Source: Siminovitchia fordii DSM 16014 = CIP 108821
GTDB taxonomy: Bacteria > Bacillota > Bacilli > Bacillales > Bacillaceae_C
DNA length: 64,000 nucleotides
NCBI RefSeq assembly: GCF_000374565.1
Contig: NZ_KB894694.1
Span: 1-64,000 of the forward strand
Reading direction: 5' to 3'
The notes beneath the pieces were generated by a model. It did no database searches. It was not told where the DNA came from and was given only the letters and a program-made list of their open reading frames with translations. Below, one piece after another: positions 42,113 through 44,792 of this stretch (positions are counted from its first letter, which is position 1; every line of letters starts with the position of its first letter). The position numbers and the translations under genes were made by a program.

Positions 42113-42539
42113 TTAATAGAATAAGCCTTCCACTTGATTCATTTCTTCCAAGGCTCTGGGCTCAATCTTCAAAGTAGCAGATGGCTGCCCTGTACCACCA
42201 TAAATAAACTCGTAATTTAAAAGCCGGGCCTCTATTACATACGGTATTTCGAGCCCTATCATAGGAACGGCTTCCACTTCATAACCCGTCACTTCCTGAA
42301 CTTCCTTTGGAGTTGTTAGATTAACTTTGCTGCAATCTAAAATTTCAGCAACTTTTTCAAAATCGACTTTTCCACGGCTTCCCGACACAACTAAAGAGTA
42401 ATATCCTTTATCGGTTTTTATGATTAACGTGGGTGCGGTTTGTTCCAATTCAATTCCGAAATAACCCGCACCTGCTTTTGCTGAGCTCAGAGGGTTTTTC
42501 GTGATGTATAATTTTCAAAATATTATTTAATTTTTCCAA
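42113..42539 (-). pseudogene. YbaK/EbsC-type aminoacyl-tRNA deacylase, frameshifted
   Basis: The C-terminal 111 residues (from TTG 42448) are a YbaK editing domain: PTLIIKTDKGYYSLVVSGSRGKVDFEKVAEIL, then VTGYEVEAVPMIG and YGGTGQPSATLKI. The same frame continues upstream through SSAKAGAGYFGIELEQTA, then hits a stop. A good start (TTG 42539 after GGGGGTG) opens a different frame, LEKLNNILKIIHHEKPSELS, which is a typical N-terminus. A one-base shift near 42480-42490 therefore separates the two halves. It is either a pseudogene or a sequencing error; repaired length is about 142 residues. Confidence 0.8.
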
Positions 42540-42565
42540 AGATCACACCCCCGAATTATCAAATA

Positions 42566-42599
42566 AAAAATGGCCAAGGTACAATCCCTGGCCATTTTT
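42566..42599 (-). terminator. Terminator of yidC2
   Basis: AAAAATGGCCA / TGGCCATTTTT arms around a 12-nt loop, immediately after the yidC2 stop. Confidence 0.9.
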
Positions 42600-42601
42600 G
42601 C

Positions 42602-43363
42602 TTACTCTTCCGCTTTCTCCGGATGTTGCGTATAGTATTTCCTTCCGATATAAGTCTGAATGATAAGAAAGATCCCGCCAACCGCCCAATATAACGGTAA
42701 AGCTGCAGGAGCATTCAAGGAGATGAAAATGATCATGACTGGAGACATATATGAAAATAATCTCATTTGGTTTTTCTGTGCTTCCGGCACTGTCGCCAAC
42801 GAAACCTGCGCTTGGACAAAATAGACTAAGCCGGCAAGGATTGTCATGATAATATCGGAGTGCCCCAGATTAAACCACAGAAAAGTATGCGAAGCAATGT
42901 CCGTTGAACTGCGGATTGCATAATACAGCCCCATTAAGATCGGCATTTGAATGAGTACCGGCAAGCATCCCATATTAAGTGGATTCACTTCATGCTTTTT
43001 ATAAAGATTCATCATTTCCATTTGGATCTTCTGCTGCTCCTCTGGTGTTTTAGCCTCCTTGGAACGCTTTTGAATCTCTTCCATTTCTGGTCTCAGTTTA
43101 TCCATTTTCACTTTCATCATCTGCTGGTTTTTATATGTTTTCAGCATAAACGGCATCAAGACCAAACGGATCAACAATGTGATAATGATCAGAGCCAGAC
43201 CGAAGTTTCCTCCAAGGACAGTCCCGATCTCATGAATGAGCCAGGCAAACGGCCGAACAAAGAAATCATAAAAAAACCCTGTTTGATTTGTAACTCCCGA
43301 ACAGCCGCCAAGCATAGCGGACGTGATGACAAGCATGATTAGGATAAATATTTTTTTCTTCAA
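42602..43363 (-). CDS. yidC2: Membrane protein insertase YidC2 (YqjG/OxaA2 type)
   Basis: A 253-residue lipoprotein insertase that places membrane proteins into the bilayer. The signal ends in the lipobox LGGC (Cys 21). Five membrane segments follow. The Oxa1 core has LLIRLVLMPFMLKTYKNQQMM with the conserved Arg of the hydrophilic groove, NPLNMGCLPVLIQMPILMGLYYAIR, and FVQAQVSLA. The start is TTG 43363. Its ribosome site AGAAGGGTGAG lies in a perfect hairpin whose other arm is the end of the upstream mifM-like gene, so expression is probably induced when insertion fails. Confidence 0.92.
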   Translation of the reverse strand: MKKKIFILIMLVITSAMLGGCSGVTNQTGFFYDFFVRPFAWLIHEIGTVLGGNFGLALIIITLLIRLVLMPFMLKTYKNQQMMKVKMDKLRPEMEEIQKRSKEAKTPEEQQKIQMEMMNLYKKHEVNPLNMGCLPVLIQMPILMGLYYAIRSSTDIASHTFLWFNLGHSDIIMTILAGLVYFVQAQVSLATVPEAQKNQMRLFSYMSPVMIIFISLNAPAALPLYWAVGGIFLIIQTYIGRKYYTQHPEKAEE

Positions 43364-43373
43364 TTAAACTCAC

Positions 43374-43410
43374 CCTTCTATTTAAATTAATATTTTAATT
43401 AAATAGAAGG
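43374..43410 (-). promoter_or_regulatory. Hairpin sequestering the yidC2 ribosome site
   Basis: On the minus strand CCTTCTATTTAA (43410-43399) pairs perfectly with TTAAATAGAAGG (43385-43374) across an AT-rich 13-nt loop. The 5' arm is the last sense codons (Leu-Leu-Phe-Asn) of the mifM-like ORF. The 3' arm contains the AGAAGG of yidC2. A ribosome stalled near the Asp-rich codons would open the stem. No T-run follows, so it is not a terminator. Confidence 0.85.
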
Positions 43411-43667
43411 TTCACATGGGCATCGCCATCATCAGGACATACTTTCCTCCTGACAGTTTTAATGAGTTGAAGCGAAAAACACGGTGAAGGTTCATCATTA
43501 ACCGTGGTTATGTGAAGGATATTTTCCTTTTTGAAATTTTGGAAGTGATTTTGTGTATTTACTGGACGGGACAGAGAAACAATTCCCAAGCTGAGAATCC
43601 ACATGATGAGGATAGTCAGCGGTATAAACCACTCCGCGTAGGATTCCTGAAAAATAATGTCAAACAT
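43395..43667 (-). CDS. MifM-like translation-arrest sensor upstream of yidC2
   Basis: A 90-residue protein. One membrane span lies at about residues 13-32 (WFIPLTILIMWILSLGI). A polar middle follows, then a tail with KTVRRKVCPDDGDAHV. B. subtilis MifM has the same plan: one span, a basic RKV segment, an acidic DEED-AG stall region, and a stop just before yidC2. There, failed insertion leaves the ribosome stalled, opening the hairpin that hides the yidC2 ribosome site. All these parts are present here. The start is ATG 43667, 7 nt after GGGTG; GTG 43676 is an alternative. Overall identity to MifM is low, so function is inferred from architecture. Confidence 0.78.
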   Translation of the reverse strand: MFDIIFQESYAEWFIPLTILIMWILSLGIVSLSRPVNTQNHFQNFKKENILHITTVNDEPSPCFSLQLIKTVRRKVCPDDGDAHVNLLFN

Positions 43668-43781
43668 ATTGAGCACCCAATTTCGATTCGTTATTTCCAG
43701 TATAACGATAAATGCAAAAAAATAAAAATGGTATGTAAAGTGTGCACAAGGAAAACCGGGCGCTAATCAGCCCGGTTGATT

Positions 43782-44792
43782 TCACGTCAAAGCATTTGCT
43801 ATTTCTCGGTTCAAAGGCTCCAAATCTACTTCAAAGCCCATATCTTCAAGCATTTTCCAATCTTTCGGCCCTTCTTGCCCTTCTGTTGTTAAATAATCAC
43901 CGATGAAAATCGAGTTGGCAGGGTACAACCCAAGCGGCTGAAGGCTGCGCAAATTGACTTCTCTTCCTCCTGAAATCCGGATTTCCTTTGTCGGATTGAT
44001 AAAACGGAACAGACAAAGTACTTTCAAGCAATAGCGTGGATTCAGCTCATCGGTGCCTTCAAGCGGGGTGCCATCCACTGCATGCAGGAAGTTCACTGGA
44101 ATAGAGTCCGCATCAAGTACTTTCAGACTGCGCGCCATATCAATGACATCTTCCTTCGATTCTTTCATGCCGATAATAACGCCGGAGCAAGGTGAAATCC
44201 CTGACGCTTTTGCCGTTTCCACTGTATTGACCCGATCGTCGTATGTATGTGAGGTCGTAATGTTTTCATGATAGCTGCTTGAAGTATTGATATTGTGGTT
44301 GTAGCGGTCAACCCCCGCTTCCTTCAAACGTTCTGCCTGGCCTGGTTTTAAGATACCGAGACAGGCACAAACAGTCATTCCCTCATGCTTATCTTTTATT
44401 TCTTTTACTGCTTCAACCACAATATCCAACTCACGGTTCGCAGGCCCCCTGCCGCTTGCCACAATGCAATAAGTACCGGCATTCAACTCGGCTGCACGGG
44501 CTGCACCTGCAACAATTTCATCTTTTTTCATCATTGAATATCTTTCAATGGGCGCCCTGGAAACAATCGACTGCGCACAGTAGCCGCAGTTTTCCGGGCA
44601 CAATCCCGATTTTGTATTAATAATCATATTCAGCTTCACTTTATTTCCGTAAAAATGCTTTCTCACCTTGTAGGCTGCATTCAAAAGAGGAAGCAGCTCA
44701 TCATCCGGGCAGTCAAGTACTGCCATGGCCTGCTCATTTGTCAACTCTTCTCCTGCAAGTGAAGCTTCTGCAATCACATCATATAGATCCAT
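43782..44792 (-). CDS. bioB: Biotin synthase
   Basis: A radical-SAM enzyme inserting sulfur into dethiobiotin. The 4Fe-4S motif CPENCGYC is at about residues 63-70. Later conserved cysteines lie in TYCIVASGRGP, VCACLG and SPCSGVIIGM. YNHNINTSSSY and ISGGREVNL are further signatures. The start is ATG 44792 after AAGGGAGAAGG, giving 336 residues; a longer frame to 44810 overlaps the site. It is 14 nt downstream of bioY. No bioA, bioD or bioF is here, so the cell may convert imported dethiobiotin or make it from another locus. Confidence 0.95.
   Translation of the reverse strand: MDLYDVIAEASLAGEELTNEQAMAVLDCPDDELLPLLNAAYKVRKHFYGNKVKLNMIINTKSGLCPENCGYCAQSIVSRAPIERYSMMKKDEIVAGAARAAELNAGTYCIVASGRGPANRELDIVVEAVKEIKDKHEGMTVCACLGILKPGQAERLKEAGVDRYNHNINTSSSYHENITTSHTYDDRVNTVETAKASGISPCSGVIIGMKESKEDVIDMARSLKVLDADSIPVNFLHAVDGTPLEGTDELNPRYCLKVLCLFRFINPTKEIRISGGREVNLRSLQPLGLYPANSIFIGDYLTTEGQEGPKDWKMLEDMGFEVDLEPLNREIANALT

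Follow-up and report, generated by a model that had tools for sequence, protein, structure and literature searches.

In Gram-positive bacteria the textbook sensor of membrane-protein insertion is MifM, whose mechanism is known from one sequence. The locus described here raises the question of whether the short open reading frame directly before yidC2 in Siminovitchia fordii DSM 16014 encodes a sensor of the same kind with another arrest sequence. A sequence-only reading of the window (the whole stretch of 64,000 nucleotides that was analysed) had proposed a MifM-like sensor for yidC2, and had pointed to an echo of the MifM RKV and to an otherwise diverged sequence that could be a distinct arrest motif. 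We find that the leader is very probably a MifM-family YidC-monitoring substrate that regulates yidC2 by arrest, with the arrest, its site and its relief by YidC predicted from sequence features. The proposal is strengthened by the pairing with yidC, by a covarying hairpin at the Shine-Dalgarno (SD) sequence and by constraint on the transmembrane (TM) segment and tail, while the RKV echo and the isolated divergent motif did not survive.

The leader ORF (43395..43667, minus strand; 90 aa) begins with ATG at 43667 and finishes with the TAA ending at 43395, leaving a gap of 31 nt to the TTG start (43363) of yidC2, which encodes a YidC/Oxa1 insertase of 253 aa (42602..43363, minus strand; PF02096, E 3.3e-45). 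These leader coordinates, the gap, a single hydrophobic span and a perfect 12-bp stem had all been read from the sequence, and all were borne out on recheck. The 90 residues reported before already imply the ATG; the GTG at 43676 given in the ORF list is an unlikely start, the ATG being common to 17/17 relatives at the same place. That alignment holds 17 relatives, with rows cut by us at the aligned ATG, and leaves out the near-duplicates L018 and L020, a remnant from G026 (L023), an unrelated long frame (L024) and L025. A GAAAT(T/C)(A/G)GGTG block precedes the ATG in all seven aligned sequences (window and six relatives), and the GGGTG inside it (43674..43678, minus strand) is the probable leader Shine-Dalgarno sequence. 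Residues 14-32 (43572..43628, minus strand) make up the transmembrane segment, the best 19-residue hydropathy window (2.38); the acidic N-tail and the Arg34 after the span suggest an N-out/C-in topology.

Curated collections say little about this peptide. Up to E 1 the window leader matched nothing in NCBIfam or PHROG, up to E 10 it matched no PDB chain, and against curated families it gave DUF2606 alone (E 0.099, below its cut-off); 23 diverse leaders gave nothing below E 0.018 in Pfam or below E 0.05 in NCBIfam. Its nearest named relatives are found in Siminovitchia fortis, S. terrae and Bacillus norwichensis, followed by Lederbergia species. A second YidC is encoded elsewhere in the window genome, between ORFs that we take to be rnpA-like and Jag-like. 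The rnpA/Jag neighbourhood is the usual one of spoIIIJ.

The last leader codons belong to an RNA stem over the yidC2 ribosome site. The 5′ arm, CCTTCTATTTAA (43399..43410, minus strand), extends from the last base of the Asn86 codon into Asn90, and the 3′ arm, TTAAATAGAAGG (43374..43385, minus strand), holds the AAGG of the yidC2 ribosome site; together (43410-43399 with 43385-43374) they form a perfect 12-bp stem. The sequence-only reading had equated the 5′ arm with the codons Leu-Leu-Phe-Asn and put the ribosome site within the 3′ arm. The arm does lie in the last codons, with its start now refined to the last base of Asn86, and the AAGG is indeed enclosed, but the adjoining GTGAG is outside and stays open in the window genome; many other lineages pair through AGGAGG. 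A 12-bp stem was reached in none of 3000 dinucleotide shuffles of the 116-nt region (best 11 bp, in two cases). Total folding energy sets the same region only slightly apart (z -1.57; 12 of 200 shuffles equal or exceed it in stability), so the case for the stem rests on perfect pairing together with covariation. In B. norwichensis (G025) position 11 of the stem has U-A where the window has A-U (CCTTCTATTTTAA / TTAAAATAGAAGG), which is either a compensatory change or a matched one-base insertion. Synonymous change is lowest in the last leader codons (pS 0.23 versus 0.41-0.45, from few sites), as expected under RNA constraint.

Covariation across lineages was evaluated by an arm-swap test that sets each leader end against its own and foreign yidC2 SD regions, with row and column centring. 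Own arms pair better than those of other lineages by 3.8 kcal/mol on average (102 loci, 32 lineages), and when each lineage was represented by a single genome, 200/200 resamples gave p 0.001, the lowest value that 1000 permutations allow. Two lineages, f1g4 and f21, run the other way, most foreign arms pairing better than their own, and in f12, f40, f4 and f47 the signal is weak on one side or both. The window ranks in the middle here, with 30% and 38% of foreign arms pairing equally well, because the segment used cut its stem short: in the four Siminovitchia-type genomes the SD finder chose GGTGA over AAGG, which shortened the arm-swap stems of G000 and G024. By the same choice folding credits the window genome (G000) and G024 with one paired SD base, where an arm finder recovers 12 bp. 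The yidC-start and SD set kept 105 of 107 loci, dropping G015 (an insert, no leader within range) and G179, for which a start could not be identified. The 107 did not take in G004, whose leader is separated from yidC2 by a transposase gene, or G029, for which there was no locus, and three loci without an SD found reduced the 105 to the 102 of the arm-swap set. A tail anchor could be placed in 95 of these 102. Folding pairs the SD by at least 4 bases in 89 of the 95, the window being among the other six because of its SD choice, and the arm finder placed an arm in 95/95. The 83 distinct 5′ arms that it returned show sequence variety and not by themselves structure, since it always reports a best stem.

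The leader follows yidC2 closely through the window's family. Among 34 genomes 31 have a YidC2-type second copy and three (G002, G026 and G028) have one YidC; the leader is present in 31/31 of the yidC2-bearing genomes. Of these leaders, 20 were recognised by direct similarity within the window's two closest genera, 9 more were read directly upstream of yidC2 in other genera, that of G029 is a profile match adjoining yidC2, and that of G004 is parted from yidC2 by an inserted gene. Where yidC2 is missing, G002 and G028 have no match to the leader profile and G026 matches over the first 31 positions only, a remnant; positive controls in the same search matched in 4/4 genomes (E 1e-26 to 1e-30). 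The remnant (C172:34500-36305) stands directly before an FAD-linked oxidase gene, with no second YidC found there, and in the window that gene lies beyond yidC2 and a tRNA-editing-domain gene; the arrangement in G026 looks as after one deletion.

Two genomes of the family carry insertions at the locus. In G004 (C1:3482300-3485400) leader and yidC2 are both intact but lie on either side of an IS110-type transposase gene (PF01548, E 8.8e-34), a natural case of the two being uncoupled. In G015 (C17:48300-49000) the stem arms are separated by an additional stretch of about 100 bases that contains short inverted repeats of its own; by eye the arms are still largely complementary.

Beyond the family, a profile of 23 diverse leaders found matches in 147 of 397 genomes of the order at E 0.05, a count that includes some chance matches and the 23 training rows that match by construction; 99 genomes are below 0.001. 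All 60 of the fetched matches have a YidC within 500 nt downstream (worst E 4.7e-37). These 60 were picked for lineage spread and for leader-like frames without stops (50 with E below 0.001 and 10 at 0.001-0.02), and places with stops or very long frames, mostly weak, are outside the 60. The profile is blind to YidC, yet 60/60 precede yidC, which makes this a widespread yidC-linked leader family. The comparison that the sequence-only reading had pointed to, an alignment of ORFs upstream of yidC2 in related genera, has the tail conserved and the hairpin present and covarying. At L049, L144, L174 and L175 (families f14, f25, f14 and f43) the leader ORF runs 52-58 nt past the SD-rule yidC start, and by that start leader and yidC would overlap.

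How this family relates to B. subtilis MifM was addressed with profiles. The 26-residue B. subtilis tail matches PDB 3j9w, and MifM-type leaders were recognised in a single family, f43, by tails almost identical to it. A profile built from 86 leaders outside that B. subtilis family finds 8/8 MifM-type leaders at E 1.1e-9 to 2.2e-6, against 0.13 for the best of 2000 shuffled decoys. In profile-profile comparison (G364 omitted from both sets) E was 1.4e-14 between the window's clade and the other leaders and 1.6e-9 between those other leaders and the MifM type; the window's clade against the MifM type directly was not significant (hhalign E 0.064), with HMM scores no better than decoys. Judged by these profiles, the leader is homologous to B. 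subtilis MifM through intermediates only.

The likeness in layout is extensive. B. subtilis MifM (YqzJ) has, like the window leader, 90-95 aa, one N-terminal TM and an acidic C-terminal tail, and is likewise a uORF directly before yidC2 in a genome with a second YidC, with an SD-masking stem whose 5′ arm is similarly far from the tail. The broad cluster has been published: Fujiwara et al. 2024 (PMC10987492) describe, in the available text, 631 yidC uORFs in a MifM cluster, with 572 sequences kept from 592 genomes, and give the Firmicutes MifM cluster an N-terminal signal and a negative stretch between residues 70 and 100. On our reading of that text the window leader has the charge and length of the cluster. 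It also has the MifM layout of a single N-terminal TM and a short linker, with about 51 residues from the TM to Ala83 (the arrest site assumed from alignment), beside a median TM-to-arrest-site linker of 54 residues in that text. Clostridial CliM (first named uC_KYxIW) and actinobacterial ApcA (RAPG) have different tails (motifs as given in the available text of PMC10987492 and PMC13183943), a comparison by motif strings alone; neither KYxIW nor RAPG occurs in the 90-aa translation, which is a weak test. The MifM-type yidC leader is thus, by the published cluster (PMC10987492), a known kind, and the window leader is a variant of it. We found no literature linking MifM with Siminovitchia.

What sets the window apart from B. 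subtilis is the tail. Residues L68-D82, LIKTVRRKVCPDDGD (43422..43466, minus strand), form the conserved tail and presumed arrest element. Over 95 leaders from 30 lineages, with equal weight per lineage, the consensus is W(62%) [IL] x [KR] x [IV] [RK] R(76%) K(79%) [ED] [SC] P(68%) D D(79%) D x [DE] H. The window leader, set in that register, runs Q L I K T V R R K V C P D D G D A H. The W is missing, as are the acids that follow RRK and stand at +3 and +5, and most of the remaining positions agree with the consensus. The B. subtilis-type tail, W I R K V F R M N S P V N D D E D, keeps the W, I, K, one R and the acids, and has M-N in place of R-K. The suggestion of a distinct arrest motif at this locus is therefore turned round: RRKxCPDDxD is near the order-wide consensus, and it is the B. 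subtilis RMNSPVNDEED that is the outlier.

Residue by residue, the MifM arrest sequence RIxxWIxxxxxMNxxxxDEED does not occur in the window leader, which has CFxxQLxxxxxRKxxxxDGDA in the same register. After the W73 position the tails read LIKTVRRKVCPDDGDA in the window and I-RKVFRMNSPVNDEED in MifM. The MifM residues R69, I70, W73, M80 and N81 become C, F, Q, R and K (the R69 and I70 positions placed by ungapped extension of the register), and I74 becomes Leu; the residues important for arrest are those reported for B. subtilis in the available text of PMC4423224. The supposed echo of the MifM RKV is out of register, since the window RRKV (73-76) aligns with R79-M80-N81-S82 and not with R75-K76-V77. 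An acidic cluster near the C-terminus is present (D79, D80 and D82), and the position of MifM D86 is acidic in 91% of the lineage weight. The proposed acidic echo of DEED holds for two of its four residues, MifM D86-E87-E88-D89 being matched by D, G, D and A, with Gly on E87. It is E87 that blocks U2506 by the text of PMC4423224 available, and Glu88 by its abstract. The available text of PMC10987492 was not seen to describe an RRKxxPDD consensus, a predominance of that consensus over the sequence of B. subtilis, or its Gln90 context (below).

The register also points to a place for the ribosome. Asp89 is the first published P-site stall codon of B. subtilis MifM (PMC4423224, available text). 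The codon aligned with it, Ala83 (43419..43421, minus strand), is the predicted stall region and sits 11 nt before the 5′ arm. A ribosome reaches about 16 nt past its P site (the toeprint distance), and at Ala83 it would open about five or six base pairs of the stem. The mechanism that we propose is as follows. The leader TM would be inserted during synthesis by YidC, mainly SpoIIIJ/YidC1; with fast insertion the nascent chain would be pulled and the ribosome would pass the tail and terminate, after which the stem would re-form over part of the yidC2 ribosome site and keep yidC2 low. Upon insertion failure the tail LIKTVRRKVCPDDGD would hold the ribosome near Asp82-His84, and its leading edge would open the first base pairs of the 5′ arm, allowing yidC2 to be translated. 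Stalling, its place, relief by YidC and the rise of yidC2 are steps that we infer from the analysis above.

Such a layout might also serve plain translational coupling, in which any passing ribosome opens the stem and re-initiates at yidC2, with no regulated arrest and no role for the peptide. The leader ORF ends within the 5′ arm, so translation alone opens the stem, and in several lineages the leader ORF overlaps the SD-rule yidC start. Over ten pairs drawn from two genera (G000 and G025 reused), dN/dS is nevertheless 0.14 in the N-terminus and TM, 0.11 in the tail and 0.34 in the linker: TM and tail are constrained at the amino-acid level, the linker less so. KTVRRK is upstream of the stem, and pairing cannot explain its conservation. 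The distance from arm to tail motif, moreover, is similar in most lineages: from the codon equivalent to Pro78 to the start of the 5′ arm the median is 24 nt by folding and 23 nt by the arm finder, with the middle half at 20-26 and 21-26 nt, respectively. It is 26 nt by both in the window, and 25-26 nt (folding) or 20-26 nt (arm finder) in eight B. subtilis-type leaders. We consider coupling of this kind unlikely.

A stable small membrane protein, acting in trans as a YidC2 partner with its basic and acidic tail binding insertase or ribosome, would suit the strict co-occurrence with yidC2 in the family, the one TM and the conserved tail. We think it very unlikely, given that the last codons serve the RNA stem, that the linker drifts, that the fetched matches are always just upstream of yidC, and that the layout matches that of MifM, for which arrest has been shown (PMC4423224, available text). 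That the hairpin is a transcription attenuator is most improbable: it is a stable stem between the two ORFs, but no U-run follows its 3′ arm (GTGAGTTTAATTG), a terminator scan of 43300-43850 gave a hairpin after bioB alone, and Rfam gave no match above cut-off.

The bioB hairpin bears on the transcription unit under the proposed arrest control. The upstream neighbours of the leader are bioY and bioB, and the terminator-like hairpin after bioB (43754..43777, minus strand; one found versus 0.4 expected in shuffles) suggests, from its position between bioB and the leader, that leader and yidC2 form their own unit. No promoter-like site was found on the leader's strand. In the Rfam search of 42500-44000 nothing was above a family's cut-off; a tmRNA match (E 0.029, 11.9 bits versus 47 needed) was taken as chance.

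Residue 90 of uL22 modulates B. subtilis MifM stalling, with Met, hydrophobic and aromatic residues supporting it and Lys least, and lineages with R, Q, K or H at this position have been called unlikely to support it (PMC4423224, available text). The uL22 of the window genome (G000 C24, rplV, L115) has Gln90, not Met90, which is expected to be poor for B. subtilis MifM stalling. Gln90 also occurs in two other genomes read of the window's genus and in three of genus g5. Among 60 leader-bearing genomes there are 17 with Gln and 43 with Met, all 10 genomes of f43 having Met90 and both residues occurring within families f1, f15, f30, f32 and f40. Across 55 genomes the strongest contrasts between residue 90 and the tail are at -11 (Gln, p 0.001) and -10 (Ile, p 0.002), the W73 and I74 positions; 20 columns were compared without correction, and related genomes dominate these contrasts. 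W at -11 is found in 5/15 genomes with Gln90 versus 26/40 with Met90 (p 0.065), and four Gln90 lineages keep it. We regard the link between uL22 residue 90 and the tail as a lead only. With Gln90 in the window genome, B. subtilis ribosomes may be ill suited to testing this leader, and failure to stall on them would not be decisive by itself.

We put forward tentatively, at a little short of an even chance, that RRK[ED][SC]PDD is the common and probably ancestral arrest element of the order's YidC-monitoring leaders, stalling without the W73, M80 and N81 contacts, and in the window's genus doing so on uL22 Gln90 ribosomes; on this view MifM of B. subtilis would be a specialised derivative, tail and tunnel wall having changed together. 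If RRKxxPDD is the common tail, arrest is not generally achieved by the B. subtilis contacts, and Siminovitchia- and Lederbergia-type leaders on Gln90 ribosomes would, if this is true, offer a natural test of the mutual adaptation of arrest peptide and exit tunnel. The records named Bacillus subtilis DE0224 (L059) and Paenibacillus bovis DE0126 (L071) carry a Lederbergia-type leader and yidC2, and their names are therefore probably wrong.
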